From Frigoribacterium faeni (lineage in GTDB: Bacteria; Actinomycetota; Actinomycetes; Actinomycetales; Microbacteriaceae), in NCBI RefSeq assembly GCF_007988805.1, contig NZ_BJUV01000016.1:1-64000 (forward strand): DNA of 64,000 bases. The letters are read 5' to 3'. Shown here in pieces: positions 4,732-64,000 of this stretch. The position numbers and the translations under genes are program-made. Within the stretch, counting starts at the first letter, position 1; every line of letters starts with the position of its first letter. The notes under the pieces were generated by a model, which saw nothing but the letters and a program-made list of their open reading frames with translations, had not been told where the DNA came from and searched no databases.

Positions 4732-6659
4732 GGGGTCCTCTCGGGGTCGTCGGGTCGCGCAGCGGGGTCCGCGTCGGTGGACGAGGAGGCGCGGGTCGGC
4801 TCGGCGGGGCGCCTCGCCACCGCGCCCACCAGCCTGGCGCAGAACACGGCCCCGTGATCGACGTCGCCCGCCGACCCCAGCCAGACGTCGCCGCCGTGAC
4901 GGCGGGCGATGTCGCGCGAGAGCGGCAGACCGAAGCCGAGGCCGTGCACGGGGTCGTCGTCGTCGGCGTCGGCCCGCGGGCCGCCGCCGTCGTCGCCGCG
5001 GTCGGCTCGCGAGCCGTCGCCCCGTCTCGGGTCGCGCTCGAACAGCCGGCCCGCCTCGGCCACCCCCTCGCCCGAGTCCATCACCGAGAGGTGCAGGTCG
5101 GCGCCGTCGTCGAGCACCTCGACCTCGATCCACGCCGGGGTGACGCGACCCGCCACCGCGGCCCGGACGGCGTTGTCGATCAGGTTGCCGAGCACGGTCG
5201 TGACGTCGCCGGGCTCGACCACGGTGCCGGTCACGAGGGTCTCGGGGCCGAGCTTGAGCAGCACGCCGCGCTCCGCCGCCTCGACGCCCTTCGCCCCGAG
5301 GAACGCCTGGAGATACGGCTCGGTCAGTCGATCGGCGTGCGCCACGGGGTACCGCAGGGGCCCGTGGTCGAGCACGTCGGCCAGGTAGCCGCGCGCCTGC
5401 TCGGCCCGACCGAGCTCGAGCATGCCCGAGAGGGCGTGCAGGCGGTTGGCGAACTCGTGGCGCTGCGCCCGGAGGGCCGTCGTCATCGCACCCACCGCGT
5501 CGAGCCGGCGCGTGAGGGCCTCGACGGCGGTCCGGTCGCGGACCACGGCGACCCGGCCGAGGTCGACGCCGTCGCGCGAGACCGGGCGCACGTCGACCAG
5601 CAGCACGTGCCTCCCGACGACGAGCGTCGTGTCGCCCGATTCGACCGGCCGACCGCCCGCACCGGGACCGGCGGCGGCGGTGCCGCCCGCGCCCTCGCGC
5701 AGCAGCTCCACGAGCGCGGCGGGGAGGTCGAGCTCGTCGAGCGGCCGGCCGACGCCCGCCGGCCCGTCGACCCCGAGGAGGCGCGCGGCCTGGTCGTTGC
5801 AGACCGTCACGATCCCGTCGCGCGAGACCGCGAGCACCCCCTCGCCCACCCCGCCGAGCACCGCCTGCTGGTTCTGCACCAGCGCCGACAGCTCCTCGGG
5901 CTGAAGGCCGAGGGTCGCGCGGTCGAGCCGTCGCCGGATCAGCACGGACGCCACGACGCCGATCACCAGGGCCAGCACGGCCACGCCGATCACGGGCAGG
6001 CTGTCGCGCGCGAGGGTGTCGTACACCCGGGCGGGCGCGTACCCGACGCTCACCTCGCCCACGACCGACCCCGCGGAGCCCGCCTCCGCCGACGGGGCGT
6101 AGATCGGCACCTTGGCGCGGGCGGACTCGCCGAGCGTGCCGCGCTCCCACGACACGACCTCCTCGCCGCGGAGCGCGGCGTCCGGACTGGTGCTCACCCG
6201 CTCGCCGATGCGCGACGCATCGGGGTGGGCCAGGCGCACACCGCGGTCGTCCGTGACGACGACGAAGAGCGCCCCGGTGCGCTGCTGCGCCGCGACGGCC
6301 GTGAGCTGCAGGTCGCCCGCCGCCAGCGCCTCCTCGTCGATGACGGTGCCGTCGACGCTGAGGGCCGCGACCTCGGTGCGCACGTCGGCGTCGGACGCGA
6401 CGCTCTGCGCCACGGCGAGCGCGGTCGACTCGGCCTCGCGCGCCAGGCGCTGGACGGCGATCGCGGCGAACACGGCGCTGGTCAGCAGCACGATCGCGGT
6501 GACGACGGCGAGCTGCAGCAGCAGCACCTCGGTGGCGAAGCGGCGCTTCCGGAGGCGCGGTGCCGGCGCCCGCCCCGTGTCGCCCCGTGCACCCGCCCGA
6601 GCGCTCGTCCGACGGTCGGGCGCGCTGCGGCGCCGCCGTGGTGAGCTGTCGTCGGTCAC
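4728..6659 (-). CDS. Sensor histidine kinase, CitA/DcuS family
   Basis: The 643-residue protein has a basic N-terminal tail, a membrane segment at about 42-66, an extracytoplasmic sensor of about 150 residues, a second segment at about 221-242 and a cytoplasmic PAS-like region. The H-box RHEFANRLHALSG, the N-box LGNLIDNAVRAA and G-boxes including HGLGFGLPLS follow. HEFxNxLH is typical of CitA/DcuS kinases, which sense carboxylates. The GTG start is chosen because a TACCCT box lies 7 bases upstream, implying a leaderless message. The acidic low-complexity stretch between the G-boxes and the tail containing TRASS look disordered, and the tail is encoded by a copy of the dispersed AGGAGGCGCG repeat. 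Confidence 0.85.
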   Translation of the reverse strand: MTDDSSPRRRRSAPDRRTSARAGARGDTGRAPAPRLRKRRFATEVLLLQLAVVTAIVLLTSAVFAAIAVQRLAREAESTALAVAQSVASDADVRTEVAALSVDGTVIDEEALAAGDLQLTAVAAQQRTGALFVVVTDDRGVRLAHPDASRIGERVSTSPDAALRGEEVVSWERGTLGESARAKVPIYAPSAEAGSAGSVVGEVSVGYAPARVYDTLARDSLPVIGVAVLALVIGVVASVLIRRRLDRATLGLQPEELSALVQNQQAVLGGVGEGVLAVSRDGIVTVCNDQAARLLGVDGPAGVGRPLDELDLPAALVELLREGAGGTAAAGPGAGGRPVESGDTTLVVGRHVLLVDVRPVSRDGVDLGRVAVVRDRTAVEALTRRLDAVGAMTTALRAQRHEFANRLHALSGMLELGRAEQARGYLADVLDHGPLRYPVAHADRLTEPYLQAFLGAKGVEAAERGVLLKLGPETLVTGTVVEPGDVTTVLGNLIDNAVRAAVAGRVTPAWIEVEVLDDGADLHLSVMDSGEGVAEAGRLFERDPRRGDGSRADRGDDGGGPRADADDDDPVHGLGFGLPLSRDIARRHGGDVWLGSAGDVDHGAVFCARLVGAVARRPAEPTRASSSTDADPAARPDDPERTP

Positions 6660-6666
6660 GTCGGCC

Positions 6667-6672
6667 AGGGTA
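6667..6672 (-). promoter_or_regulatory. -10 box for a leaderless kinase message
   Basis: TACCCT on the minus strand ends 7 bases before the GTG of the kinase gene, and no Shine-Dalgarno lies between. This is the leaderless arrangement common in actinobacteria and repeated many times in this window. Confidence 0.5.
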
Positions 6673-6862
6673 CCGGGCGCGGTGCGGCCGACCCGCGCCT
6701 CCTGCCGTCCCCGCGCCGCTCCTTTCCTGCCGAGGGGGCGGGGCGGCGGGTCCCACCCCGTGCGGCACGGGGCGGACCCGGCTGAGCAGAACGCGCAGAA
6801 CGCCGCGAACGCGGGATAGTCCGCCAATGCGCACAAGCGCGACGAGGCCGAGGAGGCGCGGC

Positions 6863-6868
6863 TAGCGT
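6863..6868 (+). promoter_or_regulatory. Candidate -10 box for the CitMHS transporter
   Basis: TAGCGT lies about 55 bases before the transporter start, directly behind a copy of the dispersed repeat (AGGAGGCGCGG at 6851-6861). The 264-base divergent gap 6660-6923 should hold the operator bound by the adjacent response regulator. I saw no convincing direct or inverted repeat to name as that site. Confidence 0.35.
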
Positions 6869-6923
6869 GCCCGGACACGCTCGGCGCCCCCACGGCGCCA
6901 CCCACTCGGACGAAGGAGTTCGG

Positions 6924-8508: not shown

Positions 8509-8865
8509 TCAGCCCAGGGCGTCCAGGTAGACCGGGCGATCGGGCTCGTGCGACCGTTCGACGGTGCGGACGGCGCCGAGGTGCTGCAGCACGGCCGAGC
8601 GGGCCGTGTGGAGGCGCTCGGCGACCGCCTGCTGACGAGCGAGCACCGAGGAGGCGCGGGTCGACAGCTCGACCGGCAGCGGCCCCAGCCCCGTGGGCGG
8701 CGTCCAGCGGGCGGCCGCCGTCGACGGGGCCGACTCCGGCTCCATCGACGTCAGGGTCCGCTCGGCGTCGTCGATCCCGCGCTCGAGGTCGTCGAGCGCG
8801 GCCGACCACGCCGGGTGCCGTTCGGCGGCGGCGTCCGTCGTCGCGGTCGTGGGCTCAGCCGACAC
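8509..8865 (-). CDS. FliT-like small flagellar protein (putative chaperone)
   Basis: The 118-residue protein is predicted to be mostly helical. It lies directly behind fliD and fliS, the position held by the FliD chaperone FliT. Sequence conservation with FliT is too weak to see directly, so the call rests on size, helicity and position. The GTG start lies inside the end of fliS (11-base overlap). A middle segment LSTRASSV is encoded by a copy of the dispersed AGGAGGCGCGGGTC repeat. Confidence 0.55.
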   Translation of the reverse strand: MSAEPTTATTDAAAERHPAWSAALDDLERGIDDAERTLTSMEPESAPSTAAARWTPPTGLGPLPVELSTRASSVLARQQAVAERLHTARSAVLQHLGAVRTVERSHEPDRPVYLDALG

Positions 8866-16601: not shown

Positions 16602-16686
16602 GCGTCACGGTCCGACAACGATCACCCGATCCGCGCCGATCGGGCCCTCGGCGTCCTGTCTCATTGATGGCGAGGAGGCGCGACAC

Positions 16687-17970: not shown

Positions 17971-19128
17971 ATGAGTGAGCACGACCCCCGCCTCGGATCC
18001 GCACCCGGCAGCGCCCGCCCCCAGAGCGTGCCCCCGGGTCTCGCCGCGCCTGCCGTCGCGAACCTCGGAGGCGCGGGCCGCTTCGACCCGATCAGCCTGC
18101 GCACCGCCGTCGACGTGCCCGCCGCCGAAGCGCGGCTCGCGGCCCTCGGCCAGAGCCGCAGCACCTCCGCGCTGGGCGAGCGGGCCGACCTGCTGCGCCT
18201 GCTCGGCCGCCTGGACGAGGCCCTCGCCATCGCCGAGGAGGCCTTCCGCCTGGCCCACTTCACGGGCGACCGCGCCGACTCCACCGCGGCGCGCATCCGC
18301 CGCGCCCACATCTTCCGCGAGCAGGGCAAGCTCGAGCGCGCCCTGAACGACCTGCACACGAGCCGCATCACCGCCGCCACCGAGGAGTGGCGCGAGCTCG
18401 AGGCCGCCGCCGCCGAGCTCGAGGGCTACACCCTCTTCGACCTCGGCCGTCACGACGAGGCGCGCGAGAACCTCGCGCAGGCCCTCGCCGCCTACGAGGC
18501 CAGCGGTGCGCCCCGCGATCGCACCGAGGGTCTCCGCGTCGCGATCGAGAACGTCATGCGCGCCTACATGACGATGGGCACCGACACCGCCGCCCCCGAC
18601 GTCTCCCCCGCAGGAGGCGCGGCGTACGACCACGAGGCCCCGCGGCCCGGCGACACCAACCCGACCGGCGTCCTGCCCTCGAGCTCCTCGGTCGACCCCG
18701 CGCACCTCCCTTCGGCCACGAGCGCCGACGCCGACGCCGACGCCGACGACCCCTCGGCCGTCGACCCCTCGGCGGCCGCCCGCGCCGCCGCGACCCGCAC
18801 CGACGACTCCGACGAGCACCCCGCGTCCGGCGTCCGACGTGACGCGGCCCCGGTCGAGTCCCCGTCGGACGACCGCCCGGTCCGCGCCGACACCAGCCTC
18901 TGGGGCAAGATCTCGAGCCTCGCGGCCAATGCCGCCGGTCACCGCGACGGCGACCGCTTCCGCGACTCGTCGAGCCGCCCGACCCACGCGTCGCACTCGG
19001 CCCCGGTCGACGACGAGGATCGCAACGAGGACGACGAGCCCCGTCCGGGCGCGACTGGCGTCACCGGCGTGGTCGAGGGGCTGCCGCGGGACGACCAGCC
19101 GTCGACGTGGCCGTTCCCTCGTCGCTGA
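17971..19128 (+). CDS. TPR-repeat protein with disordered C-terminal half
   Basis: Residues of roughly 45-190 form helical hairpins of TPR type (RLDEALAIAEEAFRLAHF, GKLERALNDLHTSR, GRHDEARENLAQALAAYE). The second half is Asp/Ser/Pro/Ala-rich, contains an Ala-Asp repeat (SADADADADD) and is probably disordered. No signal peptide or membrane segment is seen. It is probably a cytoplasmic scaffold; function unknown. The SprT-like gene follows 21 bases later and may be co-transcribed. Confidence 0.75.
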   Translation: MSEHDPRLGSAPGSARPQSVPPGLAAPAVANLGGAGRFDPISLRTAVDVPAAEARLAALGQSRSTSALGERADLLRLLGRLDEALAIAEEAFRLAHFTGDRADSTAARIRRAHIFREQGKLERALNDLHTSRITAATEEWRELEAAAAELEGYTLFDLGRHDEARENLAQALAAYEASGAPRDRTEGLRVAIENVMRAYMTMGTDTAAPDVSPAGGAAYDHEAPRPGDTNPTGVLPSSSSVDPAHLPSATSADADADADDPSAVDPSAAARAAATRTDDSDEHPASGVRRDAAPVESPSDDRPVRADTSLWGKISSLAANAAGHRDGDRFRDSSSRPTHASHSAPVDDEDRNEDDEPRPGATGVTGVVEGLPRDDQPSTWPFPRR

Positions 19129-19149
19129 CCCGCGCCTCCTGAACCGACC

Positions 19150-20898: not shown

Positions 20899-20982
20899 AG
20901 GAGGCGCGGGATCAGGAGGCGCGGACCACCTCGCCCACCTGGCCGACCTCCCCGAGCGGGGCGCGGGATCAGGAGGCGCGGG
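20899..20982 (+). repeat. Cluster of three AGGAGGCGCG repeats
   Basis: Copies at 20899-20910, 20914-20924 and 20971-20982 lie in the gap between DUF427 and the ComB-like gene; the last includes the latter's stop codon. A fourth copy is inside that gene at 21019-21030. This is the densest cluster of the dispersed repeat in the window. Confidence 0.85.
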
Positions 20983-21547
20983 CCACCTCGACCGCGACCG
21001 CCCGGTCGGCCTGCCCCGAGGAGGCGCGGGCCGACTCCACGAGATCGCCACGGTCGGTCGCCACCAGCTCGGCCGCGGACGCCGAGGCGGTCAGCAGGTG
21101 GGTCGAGGCGCGGGCGAGCGAGACGGCGGCGGCGCAGGCGACGGCGGCTTCAGGGGAGGAGGCGTCGATGCCGAGGGCGGCGAGCGCGTCGACGACGGCG
21201 CCGGCGGCCAGCTGATCCTCGACGGCGGGGCGGAAGCCGTCGGGCTCGACGGAGCCGGCCGCGACGATCGCGACGACGGCGCGGTCCCCCCGTCGGGCCT
21301 GGCGTTCGATGACGCGGCGGGCGGCGTCGGCTGCCGCGGCCGGGCCGGTGACGAGCAGCAGGTCGGCGTCGGGGTCGACGCCCGGGGCGGAGGCGACGGC
21401 GCGGAGGGTCTCGGCGGTGCTGAGCAGACCGTGCCCGTCGAGGGCGTCGACGACCACCACGAGGTGGGCCCCCGGGGCGATGCGGCTCGCCCCGGCGATG
21501 CCGTGGTCGAGGCGGACCTGGTGCTTCTGCTGGCCATGCGCGTTCAC
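20969..21547 (-). CDS. ComB-like 2-phosphosulfolactate phosphatase family protein
   Basis: The 192-residue protein matches the ComB family: RLDHGIAGA, LVVVVDALDGHG, then PDGFRPAVEDQLAAGAVVDAL and SPEAAVACAAA. ComB acts in coenzyme M synthesis in archaea, but actinobacterial homologues occur without that pathway, so the substrate here is unknown. GTG start fixed by TACGCT six bases upstream. The last residues, SARASSG and VARAS, are encoded by copies of the dispersed repeat, one of which also supplies the stop codon. Confidence 0.72.
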   Translation of the reverse strand: MNAHGQQKHQVRLDHGIAGASRIAPGAHLVVVVDALDGHGLLSTAETLRAVASAPGVDPDADLLLVTGPAAAADAARRVIERQARRGDRAVVAIVAAGSVEPDGFRPAVEDQLAAGAVVDALAALGIDASSPEAAVACAAAVSLARASTHLLTASASAAELVATDRGDLVESARASSGQADRAVAVEVARAS

Positions 21548-22751: not shown

Positions 22752-22855
22752 GCGACGACCGCCGACGGGGCGACCCGCCGTGCGCTGGGCGGGCACGAGC
22801 GGTGGACGGCGGACGGGCTGTGAAGGAGGCGCGGGCACCGGACGCGGGGGCTGCG

Positions 22856-31094: not shown

Positions 31095-31182
31095 GACGCG
31101 ACCCCGCTGGGTGGCGGGTCGTCCGCGATGACGACCCGCGCCTCCTGAGCTGACGTCGCCGCCCTGCGCGCGCCGCGGCCAT

Positions 31183-37001: not shown

Positions 37002-37050
37002 CGCGGGAGCCGAGGAGGCGCGCGAGGGCGATCGGGACCGCCCACCTCGC

Positions 37051-37917: not shown

Positions 37918-38058
37918 CGCCGGCGCTCGCGCCTGCGCCCGCACCCGCGCCCGACGGTCGTCCCCAGGAGCCGAGGAGGCGCGCCCTCCCCCGCCGGCTC
38001 GGGTCACCACCCCGAGCGTCACGGCCCCTGCCCGGCGAGGCCGTCGAGCGAGCGCGGG

Positions 38059-40814: not shown

Positions 40815-41021
40815 TCAGCGGCGGCGGGTGGCCGACCGGGCGAGGGCGAACGCCGACGCCATGAGCGCCACCGCGATCACGACGAAGATCCCCCCGGCGA
40901 CGACGTGCGCCTGGAGGATGCGCACGAGACCGACGACGAGCGCGAGCGCGGACACGAAGGCGAGCACCTTGCCGGCGGCCAGCTGCCCGCGGCGGAGAGC
41001 CGCGCCTCCTCGGCGACCCAC
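40815..41021 (-). CDS. Small two-segment membrane protein
   Basis: The 68-residue product has two membrane segments (about 18-35 and 40-60) flanked by arginines, a plausible small inner-membrane protein. It begins with GTG eight bases behind the azoreductase stop. The first residues VGRRGGAALRR include a dispersed-repeat copy (41000-41010), so the true start may be a GTG farther in. No family recognised. Confidence 0.55.
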   Translation of the reverse strand: MGRRGGAALRRGQLAAGKVLAFVSALALVVGLVRILQAHVVAGGIFVVIAVALMASAFALARSATRRR

Positions 41022-41685: not shown

Positions 41686-41743
41686 GCCGGGCCGCCCGCC
41701 CGACCGCCCCGGGCGCGGGTGCCGAGGAGGCGCGCAGGGCGGA

Positions 41744-44700: not shown

Positions 44701-46753
44701 CGCCCGCGACATCGAGGGCGTCGTCGACCTGCTCCGTCTGCTCGGCCCGCTCACCACCGACGAGATCATCGACCGCAGCTGGTTGTCCGCCACCCTCGTC
44801 ACCGGCGACGTCGCCGCCCGCGACGACGCCCACCGCGCCCTCGAGACCGCCCTCACCGACCTCGCCTGGTCGAACCGCGTGCTGCGGTTCACCCACGCCG
44901 GCGTGGTGCGCTGGGCGGGCATCGAAGACGCCTCGCGCCTCCGCGACGCCCTGGGGGTCGCCCTGCCGATCGGCGTGCCGACCGCGTTCGTCGAACCCGT
45001 CGACGACCCGCTCGGCGACCTGATCGGCCGGTTCGCCCGCACCCACGGCCCCTTCACGCCCGCGATGGTCGCCGACCGTCTCGGCCTCGGCACGGCCGTG
45101 GTGCTCGACACGCTGCGCAAGCTCGCCACCCAGCGCCGGGTAATCGAGGGCGAGTTCCGCCCGAGGCAGCAGGGCAGCGAGTGGTGCGACTCCGAGGTGC
45201 TGCGTCGCCTCCGCGGGAAGTCCCTGGCCGCCCTCCGGCACGAGGTCGAGCCCGTCGCCCCCGAGACGCTCGGCCGGTTCCTGCCCGCCTGGCAGCACGT
45301 CGCGACCGGGCTCAAGGGCTCGGGGCTCCGCGGGCTCGACGGCGTGCTGCAGGTCGTCGACCAGCTCAGCGGGGTCTCGCTGCCCGCCTCCGCCTGGGAG
45401 ACCCTCATCCTGCCCGCCCGCGTCACCGACTACAGCCCCGCGATGCTCGACGAGCTCACCGCCACCGGCGACGTCATCTGGTCGGGCACCGGCACGCTTC
45501 CCGGCAACGACGGCTGGGTCAGCCTGCATCTCGCCGACGGCGCCCAGGTCACCCTCCCCGAGCCTGCGGGCACCGAGACCGACGACCTGCAGCGCGAGGT
45601 GCTCGCCGCGTTGGCCGGCGGCGGCGCGTACTTCTTCCGGCAGCTGTCCGACGCCGTCGGCAGCACCGACGACGACGCCCTGGTCACCGCGATCTGGCAG
45701 CTCGTCTGGGCCGGGCAGATCACCAACGACACCTTCGCCCCGCTCCGCACCCAGGTGGGCGGCGGCCGGACGCCCCGGCCCCGGACGCCGACCCGGTCGC
45801 GCTCGTCGTACCGCAGCCGCGGCCGCATCGCCATGCCCCGCCAGGCCGGCCCCCCGACCGTGGGCGGGCGCTGGTCGCTGCTTCCGCTGGCCGAGCCCGA
45901 CGGCACGATCCGAGCGGCCGCGACCGCCGAGATCCTGCTCGAACGGCACGGCGTGGTGACCCGCGGCGCCGTGGTGAACGAGGGCGTGCGAGGCGGCTTC
46001 TCGACCGCGTACAAGGTGCTCAGCGGCTTCGAGGAGACCGGGCGTGCCCGCCGCGGCTACTTCGTCGAGGGGCTCGGAGCGGCGCAGTTCGCGACCGGCC
46101 CCACCGTCGACCGGCTGCGATCGTTCGTCCGCGACGACGGCGACCGGCGCGACGACGAGACCCTCGTCGCCGCCGGGCGGCAACGGGATGTCCCCGTCGT
46201 CACCCTCGCGGCGACCGACCCGGCCAACCCCTACGGCGCCGCCCTGCCCTGGCCCGGCCAGACGCTCGACGGCGCACCCGCCGACGAGGCCGCCGCGGCG
46301 GCGAGCGCAGCGGCTCGGGCGGCCGGCGCGGCGGCGGCGACCACGGCGACCGGAGCGGGCGCGCGCGGGGAGGCGGGCTCCGCGGGCGACGCGACCCGTG
46401 CCTCCTCGACGGCCGGCGCGGCGGAGAAGGGCGACACCGCAGGAGGCGCGGGCGCGAAGAAGAGGTCGGGTCACCGCCCGGGCCGCAAGGCCGGATCGCT
46501 CGTGGTGCTGGTCGACGGGCGCCTCGTCGTCTACGTCGAACGGGGCGGCAAGACGGTGCTCACCTTCGGCGAGCCCGACGAGCGCGAGCTCGCCCTGGCG
46601 GCGGCATCGCTCGCGGCGACCGTGCGCACGCGGCTCGGCAAGCTCGCGGTCGAGCGCGTCGACGGCGAGTTCGTGCTCGGCACGCCGCTCGGCGACGCCC
46701 TGCGCGACGCCGGGTTCGCTCCCACCCCCAGCGGCGTCCGGCTGCGGAGCTGA
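41744..46753 (+). CDS. lhr: Lhr-type ATP-dependent DNA/RNA helicase
   Basis: This protein of up to 1669 residues is Lhr, a superfamily-2 helicase. Motifs include APTGSGKT (about 54-61), VLYISPLKALGVD, DEVHAVASTKRGAHL, LSATVRPPEEV, then SSLELGIDMGAVDLV and QRVGRAGHQ, followed by the long Lhr C-terminal region. It unwinds DNA and RNA:DNA with 3'-5' polarity and acts in repair. Ala/Gly-rich linkers before the final domain contain TRASST and AGGAGA, encoded by dispersed-repeat copies. The start is uncertain: ATGs at 41744, 41765 and 41774 are all in frame. nei follows after four bases. Confidence 0.94.
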   Translation: MSEVQSKMAAMTDVLDRFSPATREWFRGAFAAPTRAQEGAWTAISQGDHALVIAPTGSGKTLASFLWSIDSLASTPPPDEKLHRTRVLYISPLKALGVDVERNLRSPLVGITQTARRLGTEAPDITVGVRSGDTSSSDRGKLARTPTDILITTPESLYLMLTSQARETLKGVQTVIIDEVHAVASTKRGAHLALSLERLDALLEKPAQRIGLSATVRPPEEVARFLAGPAPVTIVNPRADKKFDLRVVVPVDDMTELGTAAPLEGSAAGAAPQGSIWPHVEEGIVDLIAEHRSTIVFSNSRRLAERLTARLNDIWIERQGGDLEAAAHATERARTTADSAGLAEEAQGELVTVGALADGSSPDGDDVVDPFAPSPVSARNLAVGGGAPAQLMGGSGQTSGSEPLLARAHHGSVSKDQRALIEDDLKSGRLRCVVATSSLELGIDMGAVDLVIQVESPPSVASGLQRVGRAGHQVGETSRGVLFPKHRADLIHSAVAAERMVAGLIEELRVPTNPLDVLAQQTVAAVALDELDADEWFETVRRSAPFATLPRSAFDATLDLLSGKYPSDEFAELRPRIVWDRVHGTLTGRPGSQRLAVTSGGTIPDRGLFGVFMVGEKAARVGELDEEMVYESRVGDVFALGATSWRIEDITHDRVLVSPAYGQPGRVPFWKGDGIGRPAELGKAIGGYIRELSNSNEADATTRVAAGGLDERAARNLIAFLTEQKAATAYVPTDTTLVVERFRDELGDWRLILHSPYGMQVHAPWALAVSARIRDQLGVDGGAMAADDGIVVRIPDTDAEPPGAELFAFELDDLDEIVTEEVGGSALFSSRFRECAARALLLPRYNPGKRSPLWQQRQRSSQLLDVARKYPQFPIVLEAVREVLQDVYDLPALMSLTRDLASRTVRIVETETEVPSPFARSLLFGYVAAFMYEGDSPLAERRAAALSLDSTLLQELLGRAELRELLDADVIDQHELELQRLAPDRRARDIEGVVDLLRLLGPLTTDEIIDRSWLSATLVTGDVAARDDAHRALETALTDLAWSNRVLRFTHAGVVRWAGIEDASRLRDALGVALPIGVPTAFVEPVDDPLGDLIGRFARTHGPFTPAMVADRLGLGTAVVLDTLRKLATQRRVIEGEFRPRQQGSEWCDSEVLRRLRGKSLAALRHEVEPVAPETLGRFLPAWQHVATGLKGSGLRGLDGVLQVVDQLSGVSLPASAWETLILPARVTDYSPAMLDELTATGDVIWSGTGTLPGNDGWVSLHLADGAQVTLPEPAGTETDDLQREVLAALAGGGAYFFRQLSDAVGSTDDDALVTAIWQLVWAGQITNDTFAPLRTQVGGGRTPRPRTPTRSRSSYRSRGRIAMPRQAGPPTVGGRWSLLPLAEPDGTIRAAATAEILLERHGVVTRGAVVNEGVRGGFSTAYKVLSGFEETGRARRGYFVEGLGAAQFATGPTVDRLRSFVRDDGDRRDDETLVAAGRQRDVPVVTLAATDPANPYGAALPWPGQTLDGAPADEAAAAASAAARAAGAAAATTATGAGARGEAGSAGDATRASSTAGAAEKGDTAGGAGAKKRSGHRPGRKAGSLVVLVDGRLVVYVERGGKTVLTFGEPDERELALAAASLAATVRTRLGKLAVERVDGEFVLGTPLGDALRDAGFAPTPSGVRLRS

Positions 46754-50923: not shown

Positions 50924-51108
50924 GTCGTCTCCTCGTTCGACGGCGTCGACCCCCGTTCGGGGACGACGCGCCAGCATACAAGGAGGCACGGCCCCGTGAC
51001 GAGGCCGCCCCGGCCCCGAGGAGGCGCGGGTCGTCCTCCCCAGGACGCCGCGGCCCGGTGGTCCTCCACAGCGGTCCGCACGCACTCGAACGGCGCGGGG
51101 CGCTCTCG

Positions 51109-51114: not shown

Positions 51115-51120
51115 GGCCGC

Positions 51121-52851
51121 GTGGCGAACGACACCGACGGCGACGGCCCCCGGCCCCGGCCGGCCGTCGACGCGGCCTGGGCTCCGGTCCGGCCGCGGAC
51201 GGCGCCGGCGGCATGGGAGGCCGCGGCGGCGGATCCCCGCAGCCGCACCGCGGCCGAGCACGACGGCGACGCCTCCGACAGCCCCTCCGTCGAACCCGTC
51301 GCACCGGCCGACCCGTCCGCGCTCGAGCGGATGCTGCGCCGCGGCGGTCGGGGGGTGCGCGGCGTCTGGCGCCGCGCCTCCTCGGCTCGGCGGCTGGCGA
51401 CCGGGTTCGCGACGCTCGGCCTCGTGTCCGCGCTGGTCGTCGGGGCCGGGGTCGCGGCCCAGCCGCGGTACCCCGTGCCCGTGACCACCGGCGCGTTGTC
51501 CGCCGACCTGCGCACGGCGCCGTCGGGTGATCTCTGGAGCACCGATCTGGCGGCCCTCGGCGCCACCGACCTGCCCGACGGCTGCCGCGGCTTCCGCCCG
51601 CTGAGCGAGATCGACGGCGACGCCGTCGTCGCCTCGTCGGCCGTGGCCTACGACGGGTGCCGGGAGGCGGTGGCCCTGCTGGCGCGGATCGACCCGTCGA
51701 CCGGCGACGTGCGCTGGTCGATCGACCTCGCCGACCTGCTCGGCGGCCGGGGCATCTACCTGAGCATGGTGCGCGACGACGCGGGCTCCCTCGCGACCGT
51801 GAGCAGCCAGGAGTACCTCGGCGCGAGGTCGGTGCGCATCGACCTCGAGACCGGGCGCGTGCTCGGCGACGTCATCGGCGACGACGACTCCGACGACGTC
51901 GTGACCCAGCTGATGGGCGTGACCTCCGGCCGGCTCCTGCTGGCGTCGCAGCCCCGGGATCGCGTCGGCCCCGACGGGCAGTCCCTGACGTTCACCGACG
52001 GCGAGACCACCCCCTACCGCCTGATCGACGCCGACCACCCCGACACCGTGGTCTGGTCCGGCGACGTGGGCACCAGCGAGACCCCGTACCTGGCCGGCGC
52101 GTTCCTCGTGGTCGAGAGCGAGAACGGTCCGGTGCTGGTGGACGTCGAGACGGGCGAGGTGCACGTCGTGCCCGGCGGCATCGCGCTCGTCGAGAACGTG
52201 GTCCAGGCGGGCGACCTGCTCGTCGCGACCGTCACGACCCGGGCCGGCGAGCGGGAGGCGCTCGCCCTCGACCGCGCGGCCGAGCGGCGGTGGTCGGCCC
52301 CGCTCGAGCTCGACGCGCAGGTCGTCGTCGCCGCGAGCTGCGTGATCGTCGAGTCCGGGCGGTCGGACTTCCGCTGCCTCGAGCCGGACGACGGCCGCGA
52401 GCGCTGGTCGCGCACCCTGCCCGTGACCGAGCAGGACCAGGCCGCCGTCGACGTGTTCCAGCAGGGCCTGGAGACCTCGTCGCTCGTCGTGGACGTCACG
52501 TCGCAGATGCGGTCGGCCACGGGCGACGACGCGCCCACGACGATCCTCGGCCTCTCGCCGGCCACGGGCGAGACCACGTTCTCGGCCGAGGTGCCGCCGT
52601 TCTCGTACCTCACCGGTCTCGCGCGGACCGTCGGCTTCGCCGGCTCGTTCGTCGGTCAGGACTTCTCGAAGACCGTGGTCACCGCCTTCGACCTCGCCGA
52701 CGGTCGGCGGCTCTGGCAGCAGGACTCTCCCCCGCAGGGCTCGCTCGACTTCTGGGGCGACACGCTCGTCTCGGTCGACGCCGACGGCGTCGCCCACGGG
52801 CTGCGGACCACGGCCGACGTGGTGCCCGCCACCGCCGAGGCGTCGCGATGA
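51121..52851 (+). CDS. Membrane-anchored PQQ-like beta-propeller protein 1
   Basis: The 576-residue protein has a Pro/Ala-rich cytoplasmic tail of about 95 residues, a single membrane segment (about 100-120) preceded by arginines, and a large extracytoplasmic beta-propeller of PQQ-binding-like repeats (LLARIDPSTGDVRWSID, TVVWSGDVG, RRLWQQDSP). The cofactor residues of true quinoproteins are not evident, so this is more likely a scaffold or sensor. GTG start decided by the TACGAT box. A second, related gene lies 380 bases downstream. Confidence 0.75.
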   Translation: MANDTDGDGPRPRPAVDAAWAPVRPRTAPAAWEAAAADPRSRTAAEHDGDASDSPSVEPVAPADPSALERMLRRGGRGVRGVWRRASSARRLATGFATLGLVSALVVGAGVAAQPRYPVPVTTGALSADLRTAPSGDLWSTDLAALGATDLPDGCRGFRPLSEIDGDAVVASSAVAYDGCREAVALLARIDPSTGDVRWSIDLADLLGGRGIYLSMVRDDAGSLATVSSQEYLGARSVRIDLETGRVLGDVIGDDDSDDVVTQLMGVTSGRLLLASQPRDRVGPDGQSLTFTDGETTPYRLIDADHPDTVVWSGDVGTSETPYLAGAFLVVESENGPVLVDVETGEVHVVPGGIALVENVVQAGDLLVATVTTRAGEREALALDRAAERRWSAPLELDAQVVVAASCVIVESGRSDFRCLEPDDGRERWSRTLPVTEQDQAAVDVFQQGLETSSLVVDVTSQMRSATGDDAPTTILGLSPATGETTFSAEVPPFSYLTGLARTVGFAGSFVGQDFSKTVVTAFDLADGRRLWQQDSPPQGSLDFWGDTLVSVDADGVAHGLRTTADVVPATAEASR

Positions 52852-52891
52852 GGGGCGCGCGGTGGCGCGGGTGTCGCCGAGGAGGCGCGGG

Positions 52892-53206: not shown

Positions 53207-53230
53207 GGGGCACCGGACGAGGAGGCGCGG

Positions 53231-55106: not shown

Positions 55107-57209
55107 TCAGCCGTCGCCGCGCGCCTCCAGCGTCGAGCTCCCCGCGCTGAGGATGTACGCCATCGCGTAGGCCCGCGAGTTGCCGTCGTCGATGCCCGCC
55201 TCCGGCAGGTCGGCGAGCGCCGAGAGGGCATCCGCCGCCGCCGACGGACCGGCGAGCGACGAGTACATCAGCACGTAGTCGCCCAGCGGGCCCACGGCGC
55301 CGCCGTCGGCGACCCCGGACTCCGCGACGACCGCGGCGATCTGCTCCGCGCCTCCTGCCGCATCCGACGACAGGTACGAGACCGAGGTCGGGTCGAGCGG
55401 GATCAGCTGGATGCCGGCGATCGCCGACGGCTCGGCCGAGAACCAGGTCGCGTAGTCGCGCTTGGCGCCCCAGTTGAGCGACACGATGCGGTGCTCGTAG
55501 CCGTCGAGGACCGGGTCGGACAGGTCGGGGGCGACGAAGTAGGCGAGGGCGGACGCCGCCTCCGCGCTCAGCATCCAGGTCGCCTGCGCGGCCAGCGCGT
55601 CGTCACCGGTCGCCGTCGCCCAGAGCGAGAGGCCCGCGGAGGCGCCCACCGCCTCCGAGGACGACTCCTGGTTGTTGCCGTCCGCGAACGGCGAGTACCC
55701 GCTCGCCCAGCTGTGCGACCAGTACGGGTCGAAGGCGCGCTGGTCGGGGAACGCCCCGCTCTCCGACCCGGAGCCGATGTCGGCGGCGACCAGGTCCATC
55801 ACGGGCGCCCACCGCTCGGCGAGCTCGGGGTCGTCGGCCCCGAGCACGCCCGCGGCGTAGAGGAAGTACCCGTAGTGGAAGTGGTGGTCGTTGAACAGCT
55901 CGGAGCCGAACGACGACGCCTGGCCGACGAGGCCCTTCACGGTCGGGTCGTAGACGAAGCACTGCTGGGCCCGGACGGTGCAGCCGTCGGGGTCGGTCCA
56001 GAGGTCGAGCTGGTCGACGACGCGCTTCTTCACCGTGTCGGCCGACTCGTCGTCGCCGAGCTGCACCGCGAGCTGCCAGAGCATCGTCGCCCGGTAGATC
56101 GCCTTGCCGCCGTAGTAGGTGTCGGCGGGGAACTCGCCGGTCGACGCCACGTCGGCCCGGAGCTGCCGCCCGAGGGCGTCGCGCTCGTCGGCGCTGAGAC
56201 CGTCGAGGTCGAGCTCGGACGACGCCGTCACGGTCGGGGCGTCGAACGACAGCCTCGATCCGATCGTGAGCGGCACCGTGCCCATGATCGTCTCGTAGCC
56301 GAGGCCGGTGGCCGTCCCGCCGCCGGTCTCGCCCTGGTGCGGGGCGGGCACGATCAGCGTGTCGGCGGCGGCCGCGGTGACGTAGTCGAGCGTGGTGCTC
56401 GACGCCGCGCCTCCCGAGGTGCCGAACGTCGTGCGCACCTCGGTCAGGGGCGAGGCGGCCGCGTCGAGCACGGTGTCGACCTGACTCGGGGTCGCCCCGT
56501 CGGGCAGGGCCACGAGCACGACCGAACCGCCCGCGTCGAGGTCGACCGACGTACCGTCGAGACCGCCGCCCGTCACGACGACGCCCCAGCTGCTGCCGCC
56601 GACCTCGACCGTGCCGCGACCGTCTCCGGTGGGCACGACGGGTGCGCCGAGGGTGTCGGTCTGGTCGGTCTCGGCCGTGTACGACACGAGGGGCGAGCCC
56701 TGCGCGACGGTCGTCCGGCCGAGCACGGTGCCGCCCGCCCGGTGCTCGATCGTGACCGCGACCTTGTCGTACGACGAGACCAGCGCCTCCTCGGCTCCCA
56801 GATCGAGGGTGAGGCCGACGACCGCGGGCGCGACGACCGACGTCGACGACGTCACCGGTCGGGGCAGGCCCGCGGCCACCCCCGACGCGGTCAGCTGGAA
56901 CGAGATCGGGAACGGGAACACCGGCTGCGCGGTCTCGCCGAAGACCAGCCCGGCGAACCAGGTGCTCGTCGGGGGCACGAGGCCGTCGGCCAGTCGCATC
57001 GCAGGAGGCGCGGCGAGCGACTCCGAGGGCAGCGCGGCGATCAGCGGGTCGACCTGCGAGGCCGGATAGACGGGGCCTCCGGCGGCGTCGGGGGTGGGAT
57101 CGTCGTCCGCGGTGCAGCCGGAGACGACGAGCGCGGTCGCCACGATCAGGGCGCCCAGGGCGGCGGGCCGCCGCCCCGCCGTCCGGCCCTCCGCACCACG
57201 GATCGTCAG
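55107..57209 (-). CDS. GH81 endo-beta-1,3-glucanase, lipoprotein
   Basis: The roughly 700-residue protein matches glycoside hydrolase family 81: FNDHHFHYGYFLYAAG and NQESSSEAVGA are the catalytic-region motifs. GH81 cleaves beta-1,3-glucans. A lipobox VVSGC is present, but the first in-frame GTG (57143) leaves no positive n-region. A CTG at 57209 overlapping the HlyD-gene stop (CTGA) would add RTAGRRPAALG and give a complete signal, so I place the start there. It is third in the GT2-HlyD-GH81 operon and may trim the polymer or release it. Confidence 0.85.
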   Translation of the reverse strand: MTIRGAEGRTAGRRPAALGALIVATALVVSGCTADDDPTPDAAGGPVYPASQVDPLIAALPSESLAAPPAMRLADGLVPPTSTWFAGLVFGETAQPVFPFPISFQLTASGVAAGLPRPVTSSTSVVAPAVVGLTLDLGAEEALVSSYDKVAVTIEHRAGGTVLGRTTVAQGSPLVSYTAETDQTDTLGAPVVPTGDGRGTVEVGGSSWGVVVTGGGLDGTSVDLDAGGSVVLVALPDGATPSQVDTVLDAAASPLTEVRTTFGTSGGAASSTTLDYVTAAAADTLIVPAPHQGETGGGTATGLGYETIMGTVPLTIGSRLSFDAPTVTASSELDLDGLSADERDALGRQLRADVASTGEFPADTYYGGKAIYRATMLWQLAVQLGDDESADTVKKRVVDQLDLWTDPDGCTVRAQQCFVYDPTVKGLVGQASSFGSELFNDHHFHYGYFLYAAGVLGADDPELAERWAPVMDLVAADIGSGSESGAFPDQRAFDPYWSHSWASGYSPFADGNNQESSSEAVGASAGLSLWATATGDDALAAQATWMLSAEAASALAYFVAPDLSDPVLDGYEHRIVSLNWGAKRDYATWFSAEPSAIAGIQLIPLDPTSVSYLSSDAAGGAEQIAAVVAESGVADGGAVGPLGDYVLMYSSLAGPSAAADALSALADLPEAGIDDGNSRAYAMAYILSAGSSTLEARGDG

Positions 57210-60015: not shown

Positions 60016-60468
60016 GCGTGTTCTTCTCTCCTGGTTCGGGTCGTCGGAGATGTCGATCGACCAGGAGCGAGAGCTCGCCACAGGACGACCGGTGAGGGCG
60101 TCGGCACCTGTGGCGACTGGCCGGAGCGGGGATCGGGGTAAGCGGTCCGCGCTCCGCCCGGGATGGGTGGTCCCGGTCTGGCGTCGGTCACGGAGGTGCC
60201 TGCGTCGAGGGGTGATCGACGCGCCGTGACCTGGTCGCCGTGTGGTCCTTTCGGGGGACCTCTCGGCGACGTGGTCAGAACAGTACCGGCGGGTCTCGGA
60301 ACGTCACGGCCCCCGTTCGGGGGCCACGCGAGCCCCCTGCGTCGAGAACCCCGTACCTATGCGGGCGGCCTCACCCGTCGGGGCCGCAGCCTTCACCCGC
60401 GCAGGGGCGCCGTGTCACCCGTTCGCGGGCCGCGGAGGGGTGGCTTGACAAGGAGGCGCGGGTCGGCG
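60016..60468 (-). promoter_or_regulatory. Leader of the exopolysaccharide operon with inverted repeat
   Basis: This 450-base gap holds no credible gene. On the minus strand, TACTGT near 60283-60288 is a possible -10, giving a leader of about 260 bases. TCGCCACAGG (60075-60084) and CCTGTGGCGA (60107-60116) form a perfect 10-base inverted repeat 22 bases apart, a possible operator or RNA hairpin. A dispersed-repeat copy follows TTGACA at 60445-60464. Confidence 0.4.
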
Positions 60469-62619: not shown

Positions 62620-62647
62620 CCGCGCGTCCCCGCGACACCCCCTTCTC

Positions 62648-62700
62648 CGCACGACACCCGAATCTCTCGGGGTGTGGCGCCGAAAAGCGGGTGCGGCGCG
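62648..62700. repeat. GGGGTGTGGCGCC palindrome family, fourth locus
   Basis: ACGACACCCGAATCTCTCGGGGTGTGGCGCC forms an imperfect hairpin, followed by GCGGGTGCGGCGCGGG. It stands between the SDR and G6PDH genes and may terminate the former. Confidence 0.7.
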
Positions 62701-62711
62701 GGGCTGCCGAC

Positions 62712-62717
62712 TACCGT
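62712..62717 (+). promoter_or_regulatory. -10 box (TACCGT) for a leaderless G6PDH message
   Basis: TACCGT ends six bases before the ATG at 62724. Confidence 0.6.
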
Positions 62718-62723
62718 GCAGGC

Positions 62724-64000
62724 ATGACGAACGCGCACACCGAGTCCGCCACCCTCCTGATCCTCGGCGCGAGCGGGGATCTCGCCGCGCGCCTCCTGAT
62801 GCCCGGCCTCGGCGGTCTGCTCCATCATGAGCCCGAGCGTCGGGTGCAGCTGGTGGGCGCGGGCACCGAGGAGTTCGACGACGAGGCCTGGCGGGCGCAC
62901 GTCGCCGAGTCGTTCGCCGCCGTCGACGCCGTGGGTCCCGCGGTCGACGCGCTCCTCGAGTCGACGGTCTATCGCACGGTCGATGTGACCGACGCCGAGC
63001 AGATGCGGACGCTCCTCGACGAATGCGATGCGCCTCCGTCGATCTACTTCGCCCTGCCGCCCGCCATCACCGAGAGGTGCTGCGCGGCGTTGGCCGAGCT
63101 CGACCTGCCCGAGGGCACGGCGCTCGCGCTCGAGAAGCCGTTCGGCACCGATCTGGCGAGCGCCGAGAAGCTCAACCGCGAGGTGCTGAAGCTGGTGCCC
63201 GAGGACCAGATCCACCGCGTCGACCACTTCCTGGGGCGGTCGACGGTGCTGAACCTGCTCGGGCTGCGCTTCGCGAACCGGCTGATCGAGCCGATGCTGA
63301 ACAACCAGCACGTCGAGAGCGTCGAGATCGTCTACGACGAGGAGCTGGGCCTCGAGGGGCGGGCGCGCTACTACGACCACGCCGGCGCACTGGTCGACAT
63401 GATCCAGAGCCACCTGCTGCAGGTGATGGCGGTGCTGACGATGAACGCACCGGCGACGTTGACGGCGGCCGACCTGCGCGACGAGAAGGGCCTGGTGCTG
63501 CGGGCGACGCGGCTGTGGCAGAACGACCCGGTGGCGAACAGCCGTCGGGCCCGCTACGTCGCGGGCACGATCGACGGGCGCGAGCTCCCCGCCTATGCGG
63601 ACGAGGAGGGCGTGGACCCGTCGCTCGAGACCGAGACGCTGGCCGAGGTCGTCGTCGAGGTGGCGAACTGGCGCTGGGCGGGGGTGCCGATCCTGCTGCG
63701 GTCGGGCAAGGCGGTGGCCTCGAGGAGGCGCGAGATCGTGATCACGTTCCGTCCGCCCGCGCACGTGCCCGCCGAGTTCGAAGGCGGAGGGACGCCCGAC
63801 CGCCTGCGCATCGCGATCTCCCCCGACGAGATGTCGCTCGAGCTCAACGTCAACGGACCCGGTGACGCGTACGACCTCGGGCGGGCGACCCTGCACGCCG
63901 ACTTCGGCCGCTCGGACCTGACCGCCTACGGCGAGGTGCTGAGCGGGATCCTCGACGACGACCCGACGCTGTCGGTGCGCGGCGACACGGCCGAGCAGTG
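62724..64000 (+). CDS. zwf: Glucose-6-phosphate dehydrogenase, partial at window end
   Basis: The first 425 residues are present, and the 3' end lies outside the window. The N-terminus ILGASGDLAARLLMPGL is the NADP-binding loop, with RLL in place of the usual RKL. EKPFGTD and VDHFLGRSTVLNLL carry the substrate-binding and catalytic His motif (RVDHFLGR for RIDHYLGK). The enzyme opens the oxidative pentose-phosphate pathway. ATG fixed by the TACCGT box. The variations suggest a divergent paralogue (a second Zwf-like enzyme) rather than the main one. Confidence 0.88.
   Translation, partial: MTNAHTESATLLILGASGDLAARLLMPGLGGLLHHEPERRVQLVGAGTEEFDDEAWRAHVAESFAAVDAVGPAVDALLESTVYRTVDVTDAEQMRTLLDECDAPPSIYFALPPAITERCCAALAELDLPEGTALALEKPFGTDLASAEKLNREVLKLVPEDQIHRVDHFLGRSTVLNLLGLRFANRLIEPMLNNQHVESVEIVYDEELGLEGRARYYDHAGALVDMIQSHLLQVMAVLTMNAPATLTAADLRDEKGLVLRATRLWQNDPVANSRRARYVAGTIDGRELPAYADEEGVDPSLETETLAEVVVEVANWRWAGVPILLRSGKAVASRRREIVITFRPPAHVPAEFEGGGTPDRLRIAISPDEMSLELNVNGPGDAYDLGRATLHADFGRSDLTAYGEVLSGILDDDPTLSVRGDTAEQ

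Follow-up and report, generated by a model that had tools for sequence, protein, structure and literature searches.

A ten-letter word abundant across Frigoribacterium genomes is a probable DNA uptake sequence

Why does one ten-letter word, AGGAGGCGCG, recur so often in a stretch of the Frigoribacterium faeni genome? An earlier sequence-only reading of this stretch likened the word to either a DNA uptake sequence or a Chi/KOPS-type site. Here, its abundance, placement, orientation, and conservation are described, and the possible explanations are weighed. The F. faeni genome under study is labeled G000, and the labels G002, G003, G013, and G015 denote congeners.

RESULTS

Abundance and core of the word

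The window, i.e., the whole stretch of 64,000 nt that was analyzed, contained 34 exact copies of AGGAGGCGCG, 23 on the plus strand and 11 on the minus strand (Table 1). In 100 dinucleotide-preserving shuffles, the mean was 0.94 copies and the maximum was 3; the sequence-only reading had expected about one copy by chance. All 29 copies listed by the sequence-only reading were recovered at the same coordinate and strand, while five had been overlooked (106, 2054, 37352, and 62788 on the minus strand and 5776 on the plus strand). The four one-mismatch places that it named were found within 1 to 4 bases, at 13495, 19608, 30599, and 49305. The window held 43 single-mismatch copies in total, and 25 exact and single-mismatch copies jointly were expected.

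The whole F. faeni genome (3.38 Mb) contained 1204 copies (621 forward and 583 reverse), compared to 29 (14 and 15) for the reversed word. Under an order-4 Markov model, 464 kb of F. faeni sequence held 117 copies for an expectation of 6.1 and 400 kb of G015 sequence held 150 for an expectation of 3.7, an excess that is large, though below that over the reversed word. For the extended form of the word, the 15-mer AGGAGGCGCGGGTCG, the counts were 258 versus 0. The possibility that the frequency lies within expectation, which the sequence-only reading had named as a reason to abandon its idea, can thus be dismissed. The density of the word tracked local GC content (Spearman 0.47 and 0.78).

The core of the word is GGAGGC[G/a]C. 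The next base is mostly G, in many cases with GTCG or TG after it, and there is little conservation past about 18 bp. This core is almost all-or-none. One-mismatch words at seven core positions totaled 41 versus about 51 expected, whereas the exact 11-mer of the motif was 63-fold above expectation. At two of three places, changes in the CGC part were as poorly tolerated as changes in AGGAGG. Exact and singly mismatched copies occurred at 117:225 and 150:170, compared to 2:156 and 2:86 for the reversed-word control; the ratio is strongly shifted relative to the control yet below 1.

TABLE 1 Exact copies of AGGAGGCGCG in the window
Position	Strand	Location	Remarks
106..115	-	in gene 18-1070, sense	identical in G002, G003, G015, G013
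2054..2063	-	in gene 1067-2749, sense	
4784..4793	+	in gene 4728-6527, antisense	close to gene's end
5776..5785	+	in gene 4728-6527, antisense	
6694..6703	-	intergenic	identical in G002, G003, G015, G013
6851..6860	+	intergenic	first base differs in G015, G013
8649..8658	+	in gene 8509-8865, antisense	identical in G002, G003, G015, G013
16673..16682	+	4 bp upstream of called start, gene 16687-17880	could also serve as ribosome-binding site
18612..18621	+	in gene 17971-19128, sense	
19131..19140	-	2 bp behind gene 17971-19128	
20899..20908	+	intergenic	first in four-copy cluster
20914..20923	+	intergenic	in 20899-21028 cluster
20971..20980	+	end of gene 20969-21547, antisense	in 20899-21028 cluster
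21019..21028	+	in gene 20969-21547, antisense	in 20899-21028 cluster
22824..22833	+	intergenic	
31137..31146	-	42 bp behind gene 29154-31094	
33860..33869	+	intergenic	
34840..34849	-	in gene 34597-35268, antisense	identical in G002, G003, G015, G013
36021..36030	+	in GNAT gene 35366-36454, antisense	
37013..37022	+	11 bp behind gene 36552-37001	
37352..37361	-	in gene 37063-37917, antisense	
37974..37983	+	intergenic	
41001..41010	-	in gene 40815-41021, sense	
41725..41734	+	9 bp upstream of Lhr helicase gene	
46441..46450	+	in Lhr helicase gene 41744-46753, sense	identical in G003, G015, G013
51019..51028	+	intergenic	
51373..51382	-	in gene 51058-52851, antisense	
52880..52889	+	28 bp behind gene 51058-52851	
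53220..53229	+	1 bp upstream of called start, gene 53231-55093	
55347..55356	-	in GH81 gene 55107-57143, sense	
57003..57012	+	in GH81 gene 55107-57143, antisense	
60451..60460	+	intergenic, 8 bp from gene 60469-61362	
62788..62797	-	intergenic	
63723..63732	+	in gene 63593-63745, antisense	weak gene call

Placement and orientation

Copies outside gene calls made up 47/120, 73/150, and 144/281 in three samples in which nongenic sequence accounted for 14 to 16%, corresponding to an about threefold enrichment. Of 551 copies, 264 were outside gene calls, 286 were inside (114 sense and 172 antisense), and 1 was at an edge. Half of the window copies (17/34) lay within gene calls and were translated as RASS, PRLL, GGGA, EEAR, and similar. 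The sequence-only reading had placed intragenic copies mainly in termini and linkers. This was borne out in part, by such RASS- and GGGA-type readings and by the last tenth of genes, which held 17 of 71 intragenic copies in the 464-kb F. faeni sample. Conserved protein motifs do not account for all copies, as these occur in several reading frames, on both gene strands, and in gaps.

Pairs of copies within 60 bp of each other were convergent in 27 cases, opposite-facing (-+) in 10, and same-facing in 22. Convergent pairs outnumbered opposite-facing ones 21 to 6 in G000 and G015, but only 6 to 4 in the region from the other 12 species, in which some pairs were inherited from a common ancestor. 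None of the 27 convergent pairs, whose folding energies were -27 to -43 kcal/mol, was located between divergent genes, and 21 of the 23 measurable hairpins started 5 to 60 bp past a stop codon. The word was missing from a 20-kb stretch containing uvrA, uvrB, and uvrC and from a stretch containing ribonucleotide reductase in G015. Judged by such core genes, and with core and accessory genes taken together, these copy-free stretches do not look like foreign islands.

A bias of 22 copies to 7, reported by the sequence-only reading, was not borne out: the ratio was 23:11 in the window and 621:583 genome-wide. In 20 segments spread over the 3.7-Mb single contig of G015, 80 copies were on the plus strand and 70 were on the minus strand, and all 18 segments holding copies showed both strands (the origin of replication was not placed). 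The word therefore has no strand polarity on the chromosome. On contig C1 of F. faeni, strands alternated beyond chance (39 runs versus 30.1 expected); contig C2 and the window showed no clear departure of strand order from chance. Neighbors more than 150 bp apart were on the same strand in 43 cases and on opposite strands in 65 in G015, and in 28 and 27 cases, respectively, in the F. faeni genome. With pairs merged, spacing was hardly more even than random (coefficients of variation [CV], 0.92 and 0.93).

Conservation, genus limit, and competence genes

In aligned comparisons, AGGAGGCGCG was exactly kept at 183 of 254 sites, compared to 1246 of 3844 for GC-matched 10-mers. It was the better conserved in all 10 directed comparisons (nine species pairs), with odds ratios of 2.9 to 12.8 and a weakest P value of 0.038.

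Each of 16 Frigoribacterium genomes carried 513 to 1570 copies, and none of the 56 other genera of Microbacteriaceae examined came near this count. A metagenome-assembled genome (MAG) labeled Frigoribacterium (L041; 13 kb, 64.8% GC, 43% ComEC identity) had 0 copies and was taken for a mislabeled MAG. A second word, CGGATGCCGC, which shows no resemblance to AGGAGGCGCG, was at least fivefold over its control in 23 of the 56 other Microbacteriaceae genomes, but reached this level in 0 of 16 Frigoribacterium genomes and in 0 of 47 genomes outside the family. It is perhaps a second dialect of a candidate uptake word.

ComEC was found in all 16 Frigoribacterium genomes. That of F. faeni encodes ComEA, with SLBB and HhH, together with ComEC, as well as a Tad cluster. 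The type IVa pilus operon was present in 13 of 16 genomes and absent between rpoC and rpsL in G000, G002, and G003, which nevertheless hold 1204, 1249, and 1492 copies, respectively, with conservation maintained. A literature search on Frigoribacterium and natural transformation found no paper. Natural DNA uptake has been described in two freshwater Microbacteriaceae (PMC11577799).

DISCUSSION

As judged from genome sequences, AGGAGGCGCG probably serves Frigoribacterium as its DNA uptake sequence. Copy number, lack of polarity, preference for gaps, convergent hairpins, sharp core, conservation, genus limit, and competence genes are all in line with this half of the earlier proposal, and from them we infer that the word may govern uptake. 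The exact-to-mismatch ratio, the spacing, and core-genome enrichment do not clearly follow the pattern. The dependence of density on local GC, the raised indel frequency at AGGAGGCGCG sites, and the lack of a type IVa pilus operon in three species that keep the word also count against this reading. A type IV-family competence filament would carry a putative surface receptor that binds double-stranded DNA bearing the word. After filament retraction, ComEA would hold the DNA, ComEC would pass one strand inward, and RecA would recombine it. Word-bearing fragments would enter more often, so that word-bearing alleles would be copied over wordless ones. The word would accumulate on both strands where proteins and transcripts tolerate it, in gaps, at gene ends, and in hairpins past stop codons, and damaged copies would be repaired from neighbors. 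As the type IVa pilus operon of F. faeni is gone, its Tad pilus is presumably the competence filament; transformation of another actinobacterium, Micrococcus luteus, depends on Tad genes (PMC4322843).

Alternatively, AGGAGGCGCG could be a chromosomal site bound by a nucleoid, repair, or segregation protein specific to the genus, selected site by site and unrelated to uptake. This would account for the sharp core, the genus limit, and conservation where the type IVa pilus is missing. The density, which rises with local GC and varies along the chromosome, core genes included, also favors it. On its own, it explains neither the convergent hairpin pairs past stop codons and the missing polarity nor the unrelated, similarly spread word in sister genera, and we regard it as unlikely. 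Chi is usually orientation biased, and Chi and KOPS are polar relative to replication. Both resemble AGGAGGCGCG as short overrepresented chromosomal words, but AGGAGGCGCG is nonpolar. Because its orientation does not follow replication, the Chi/KOPS half of the earlier proposal is unsupported. A Chi-like recombination signal for a helicase-nuclease such as AdnAB or RecBCD would fit the hundreds to thousands of exact copies across the chromosome, and Chi varies between bacterial species (PMC3630211). Still, the absence of orientation bias in G000 and along the G015 chromosome, the enrichment outside genes and in inverted pairs, and the longer core with extended flanks make it quite improbable.

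The sequence-only reading also suggested insertion or selection in tolerant sites; insertion finds partial support only. Substitutions exceeded indels at nonidentical aligned sites (631 versus 363), and many presence/absence differences were one-base substitutions in place, which argues against spread as a short mobile or REP-like element. In favor of it, indels were about twice as frequent at AGGAGGCGCG sites (28/254) as at GC-matched 10-mers (236/3844), some presence/absence differences were alignment gaps (6 of the 42 G003 sites aligned to G002), and clusters were gained or lost (20899-21028 in the window and a four-copy run in G015). However, half of the copies lie in intergenic gaps, where indels are common anyway, published DNA uptake sequences (DUS) too are often opposite gaps in other genomes (PMC2397512), 286 of 551 copies are intragenic, and conservation fades beyond about 18 bp. 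Such an element is very unlikely. The 27 convergent pairs, mostly past stop codons, speak for a transcription terminator or some other hairpin formed in RNA, but these comprise only 54 of 551 copies. Unpaired intragenic copies rule out termination as the sole function, and the chance of this explanation is slimmer still. AGGAGG is the Shine-Dalgarno consensus and could recur because it is ribosome bound, together with codon and GC bias, as at 16673 and 53220 before called starts. With AGGAGG located 0 to 12 nt before a same-strand called start in only 5 of 267 copies, this is refuted as a general explanation. The intolerance of the CGC part and the absence of the word from 56 other genera of the family leave it hardly credible. 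An uptake sequence fits better than Chi, KOPS, a mobile repeat, a ribosome-binding site, or termination alone.

A wider proposal, which we put at slightly below an even chance, is that Microbacteriaceae represent a third origin of sequence-specific uptake. Two or more unrelated dialects would exist in the family: many genera would use CGGATGCCGC, and Frigoribacterium would have switched wholesale to AGGAGGCGCG. The word would be read by a Tad competence pilus or other surface receptor rather than a T4a minor pilin, and more than 1000 sites would have been rewritten on receptor change. The evolution of uptake sequences has so far been argued from two families, and a 2016 review places them in Pasteurellaceae and Neisseriaceae only (PMC5031613). 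If true, a third independent, actinobacterial origin would mean that DNA self-tags are able to evolve with different machinery, and the tag would be separated from the T4a pilus, because three species retain the word without it. Receptor coevolution would become testable across dialects inside one family, and a 10- to 15-bp tag might improve laboratory transformation of Frigoribacterium and Microbacterium.

Uptake signal sequences (USS) and DUS lack orientation bias, form close opposite pairs, prefer noncoding sequence, and occur as subclade types (PMC1626085, PMC3630211). Neisseriaceae DUS resemble AGGAGGCGCG in clade-confined dialects, inverted pairs at terminators, a strict inner core with laxer outer bases, and conservation above the surroundings (PMC3630211, PMC2397512). 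DUS dialects all share a CTG core (PMC3630211), whereas AGGAGGCGCG and CGGATGCCGC are unlike each other. DUS are also enriched in the core genome (PMC2397512), unlike the copy-free stretches with uvrABC and ribonucleotide reductase, as seen with core and accessory genes taken together. The only receptor known for DUS is the minor pilin ComP; lacking the type IVa pilus operon, G000, G002, and G003 are unlikely to have a ComP-like reader. M. luteus shares ComEA, ComEC, and Tad genes with F. faeni, but the available parts of the report on its Flp/Tad-dependent transformation mention no uptake word (PMC4322843). Pasteurellaceae USS (AAGTGCGGT and ACAAGCGGT types) likewise number hundreds to thousands without orientation bias, prefer gaps while keeping many intragenic copies (65% in ORFs versus about 86% coding), form close opposite pairs, are biased toward gene ends, and have subclade-specific types (PMC1626085, PMC2346458). 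Exact USS copies exceed singly mismatched ones in most Pasteurellaceae (PMC1626085), unlike those of AGGAGGCGCG, which is unrelated and GC rich, lacks AT-rich flanks, and has an actinobacterial host. Its density in Frigoribacterium is about 155 to 465 per Mb, compared to nearly one per kb for Pasteurellaceae USS.

Abundance and genus specificity of AGGAGGCGCG

The window contained 34 copies of AGGAGGCGCG (23 plus, 11 minus), compared to 0.94 expected from 100 dinucleotide shuffles. All 29 copies listed by the sequence-only reading were correct, and five others had been overlooked. In the source genome, G000 (3.38 Mb, 83 contigs), 621 + 583 copies were counted against 14 + 15 of the control, which for AGGAGGCGCG, AGGAGGCGCGGGTCG, and CGGATGCCGC was the same word read backwards. 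The 15-mer AGGAGGCGCGGGTCG occurred 258 times in this genome and its control 0 times. The excess also held under a Markov model, the test which the sequence-only reading had proposed. With order-4 expectation, 117 copies were observed in 464 kb of G000 where 6.1 were expected (19-fold), and 150 in 400 kb of the congener G015 where 3.7 were expected (40-fold). Words of the AGGAGGCGCG motif topped the enrichment rankings of 8-, 10-, and 12-mers in both samples.

Frigoribacterium belongs to the family Microbacteriaceae. By name, the closest ComEC relatives came from Frigoribacterium sp. Leaf263 and CFBP 13712 (68 to 70% identity), in keeping with this genus. In a survey of 119 relatives, each of the 15 other congeners carried 513 to 1570 copies of AGGAGGCGCG. 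Among 56 other genomes of the family, those with at least 50 copies never exceeded 3.7 times their own control, as in G023 (52 versus 14) and G069 (216 versus 75). Among 47 genomes of the order's other families, those with at least 30 copies never exceeded about 2.5 times the control. Frigoribacterium loci L036 to L038 contained 34 copies in 67 kb, and 76 loci under other labels (1.60 Mb) contained 7, with a control count of 24. L041, a 13-kb MAG locus under the label Frigoribacterium (64.8% GC, 43% ComEC identity), had no copy.

To define the word, we used single-base variants of the 11-mer AGGAGGCGCGG, which was found 200 times in 864 kb where 3.2 were expected. Variants at position 2 to 7 or 9 summed to 41, with about 51 expected, and were near chance, the highest single one reaching 3.3-fold. 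Tolerance was seen at position 1 (C, 8-fold; G, 16-fold), position 8 (A, 13-fold), position 10 (A, 9-fold; T, 13-fold), and position 11 (7- to 13-fold). The working word in Frigoribacterium is therefore close to GGAGGC[G/a]C with favoured flanks. The preference in the flanks of 117 aligned AGGAGGCGCG copies was weak, about CCG on the 5' side and GGTCG on the 3' side, and in G015 GGAGGCGCGGGT (48) and GGAGGCGCGGTG (45) were about equally frequent.

Placement, pairing, and orientation

Genes were called with an in-house codon-bias script, not a published gene finder, and G013 was left out of the placement and pair counts because it is a near copy of G015. Copies of AGGAGGCGCG outside called genes amounted to 47 of 120 in G000 (484 kb) and 73 of 150 in G015 (400 kb), and the window region, taken from 12 species, had 144 of 281 outside; the non-genic share of sequence in these samples was 14 to 16%. 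In the window itself, 17 of the 34 copies were intergenic. The intragenic copies of the three samples comprised 114 sense and 172 antisense.

Pairs separated by no more than 60 bp were convergent in 27 cases, faced the opposite way in 10, and faced the same way in 22. The convergent surplus was due to G000 and G015 (21 versus 6), the 12-species set giving 6 convergent versus 4 opposite-facing pairs. Most convergent pairs had a spacing of 26 to 34 bp, and such pairs folded at -27 to -43 kcal/mol. They lay between tandem genes (15), between convergent genes (8), or within genes (2), two being unplaced and none lying between divergent genes. A four-copy run with 19-bp steps was also observed in G015 and was mostly absent from G005 and G014.

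The strand skew along the chromosome that the sequence-only reading had considered was absent. Twenty segments across the 3.7-Mb contig of G015 yielded 80 plus and 70 minus copies; both strands were represented in each of the 18 copy-bearing segments, and orientation was independent of chromosome position. Density ranged from 0 to 15 per 20 kb and tracked local GC (Spearman 0.78, segments L116 to L135); one guess is that recombination rate lies behind this relationship.

Locations of features in the window and in relatives
Feature	Location	Observation
AGGAGGCGCG cluster	window 20899-21028	four direct copies inside 130 bp at gene end
Stretch between AGGAGGCGCG copies	window, between 22833 and 31137	no copy
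Low-GC stretch	window 24001-28000	about 63% GC versus 71-75% in most of window
Gene-poor stretch	window about 24000-29150	single short gene call, no Rfam match
Second local repeat CGGGGTGTGGCGCCG	window 31694-32028, 39665-39719, 62668	22 places with at most two mismatches versus 2.04 expected (window); arrays tandem and inverted, steps of about 19-23 bp
Copy-free G015 segments	2.22 and 2.41 Mb	zero AGGAGGCGCG copies
T4a operon comparison, rpoC-rpsL	L173, L174, L175 versus L120	absent in three congeners, present in 13 (by PilM)
CGGATGCCGC carriers	G016, G021, G023, G040, G044, G054, G071; Microbacterium loci L044-L115	

Conservation of sites between species

Four aligned AGGAGGCGCG sites at the pilM locus were compared among 13 congeners. 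Three of them differed from non-sites by gap-free substitutions, and the fourth lay at a ragged alignment end. The window region was compared among 15 species in all directions, yielding 5432 site-by-species cells; G008 was excluded from this comparison and from the tree (contig of 3.9 kb). Of these cells, 3359 were unaligned, largely because the compared regions were unequal in length. Among the aligned cells, 1079 were identical, 363 had an indel, 414 carried between one and three substitutions, and 217 carried at least four. Clusters of AGGAGGCGCG were both gained and lost between species.

Exact conservation was higher for AGGAGGCGCG sites than for GC-matched 10-mers in all 10 directed comparisons (summed, 183/254 versus 1246/3844). 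It reached 30/35 versus 134/419 from G002 to G003 and 15/19 versus 101/366 from G000 to G003, and the weakest comparison was from G000 to G015 (7/17 versus 65/335, P = 0.038). Indels were about twice as frequent at AGGAGGCGCG sites (28/254 versus 236/3844), which counts against an origin by point mutation alone.

Competence genes and pili

The ComEA (SLBB, HhH) and ComEC genes of G000 were open, and ComEC was present in 16 of 16 congeners. In G015, the interval between rpsL and a gene which we take to be rpoC (this and some other gene names were assigned by recognition, not by family search) harbored a type IVa pilus (T4a) operon with two T2SSE ATPases, T2SSF, three N-methyl pilins, a prepilin peptidase, PilM, and PilO. 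PilM was found in 13 of 16 congeners. In G000, G002, and G003 the same interval held two or three small genes only, and searches of these whole genomes recovered no N-methyl pilin and no PilM. The T4a pilus was the expected reader of AGGAGGCGCG; this is contradicted by the absence of the operon from these three species, which carry 1204, 1249, and 1492 copies, respectively. In the tree, G000 stood apart from G002 and G003, and grouping all three was not rejected (p-AU = 0.355), so that one T4a loss or two are both compatible with it. The count in G000 was the lowest of a nine-species clade (1204 versus 1214 to 1570). However, its copies are still better conserved than matched words, and we therefore claim no decay following pilus loss.

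A Tad pilus cluster in G000 encodes T2SSE, T2SSF, DUF4244, and a TadE/G-like protein. According to excerpts of one report, transformation of Micrococcus luteus requires Tad genes (PMC4322843). Given the missing T4a pilus, the Tad cluster, and this precedent, we propose that the DNA-uptake platform in this species would be Tad rather than T4a, the Tad cluster being known from G000.

Resemblance to known uptake sequences

Excerpts of published work on DUS/USS, the uptake sequences of Neisseriaceae and Pasteurellaceae, place them in these two families and describe a lack of orientation bias, close opposite pairs, a preference for gaps alongside frequent intragenic copies, types confined to clades, and strong conservation (PMC1626085, PMC3630211, PMC2397512, PMC2346458, PMC5031613). 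AGGAGGCGCG shares these sequence marks. On the other hand, host G000 is missing the T4a pilus, the exact-to-mismatch ratio of AGGAGGCGCG is below 1, its spacing is weakly even, and some core regions are without copies. Judged from sequence, AGGAGGCGCG probably works like a DUS and is a candidate member of the DUS/USS class. The sequence-only reading had likened the word to a DNA-uptake sequence or a Chi/KOPS-type site. The former reading fits most of the DUS/USS sequence marks, and Chi and KOPS were rejected for want of polarity, both along the single-contig congener G015 and by a runs test.

A Shine-Dalgarno role was rejected, since just 5 of 267 copies placed AGGAGG within 0 to 12 nt of a called start on the same strand, and a mobile repeat was rejected from the alignments of the pilM locus (13 species) and the window region (15 species). 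Rfam gave no match in the window at gathering scores. Copy-free stretches were considered as foreign islands; a scan of 10 proteins showed that they instead contain uvrABC, a ribonucleotide reductase, and genes of ordinary metabolism, and no depletion of AGGAGGCGCG in islands is therefore claimed. Searches of the open-access literature, with subscription papers and preprints mostly outside, returned no paper on natural transformation in Frigoribacterium, a Microbacterium DNA uptake sequence, or an Actinomycetota uptake sequence. By title and abstract, none of the listed matches containing the letters of AGGAGGCGCG dealt with the subject, and titles and abstract openings of the other matches listed mentioned no actinobacterial uptake sequence.

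A second word in sister genera

In the 119 relatives, CGGATGCCGC stood at five times its control or more in 23 of the other 56 genomes of the family and reached tenfold in 13 of these, with up to 1182 copies per genome; G016, for example, had 1179 versus 20. None of 16 Frigoribacterium genomes reached the fivefold level, and neither did any of the 47 genomes from other families, whose top ratio was 2.3. It should be noted that the reversed control contains the stop codon TAG, scarce in coding DNA, which inflates these ratios; the contrast between genera is independent of it. Using order-3 Markov models and distinct contexts, GGATGCCGCG was 8.5-fold (182 versus 21.3 expected) and GGATGCCG 4.7-fold (709 versus 149.8) enriched in Microbacterium. 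Against such a model, in 60 kb each, GCGGCATCCG was enriched 18-fold in G016 (13 versus 0.74) and 16-fold in G023 (18 versus 1.14).

Neighbouring GGATGCCG copies in 40 Microbacterium loci shared the strand in 274 cases and were opposite in 373. Three of these loci were dropped from the pair and placement counts, and 10 were used for the exact-to-mismatch ratio and spacing. In the remaining 37, close pairs were convergent (24), opposite (6), or same-facing (17), and coding copies were 336 sense and 317 antisense. The second word was weak in Curtobacterium (107 versus 49), where neighbours mostly shared a strand (57 versus 26). Unlike AGGAGGCGCG, it had no non-coding enrichment in Microbacterium (98 of 755 copies; non-coding share, 12%), and codon context may thus account for some of the surplus.

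In nine other genera, CGGATGCCGC showed no clean association with T4a pili: G019 had pilin matches without CGGATGCCGC excess, and G018 had the excess without pilin matches. The mutually exclusive spread of CGGATGCCGC and AGGAGGCGCG suggests that they are dialects of one system, which is the least secure part of our reading. A third origin of sequence-specific uptake in Microbacteriaceae, with unrelated dialects, a switch in Frigoribacterium, and a Tad or other non-T4a receptor, may be entertained tentatively, with doubt slightly prevailing; we set its probability lower because of the inflated CGGATGCCGC ratios. Other words were also over-represented: GGTTGAGGAG (17 copies) and GTTTCGAGAC (11) in 60 kb of G023 (L182 to L184), with about 0.1 expected each, and GGGGGAGT / ACTCCCCC in each of the three genera sampled, through the comEC loci of Microbacterium and Curtobacterium and through L009 to L028 plus the window.
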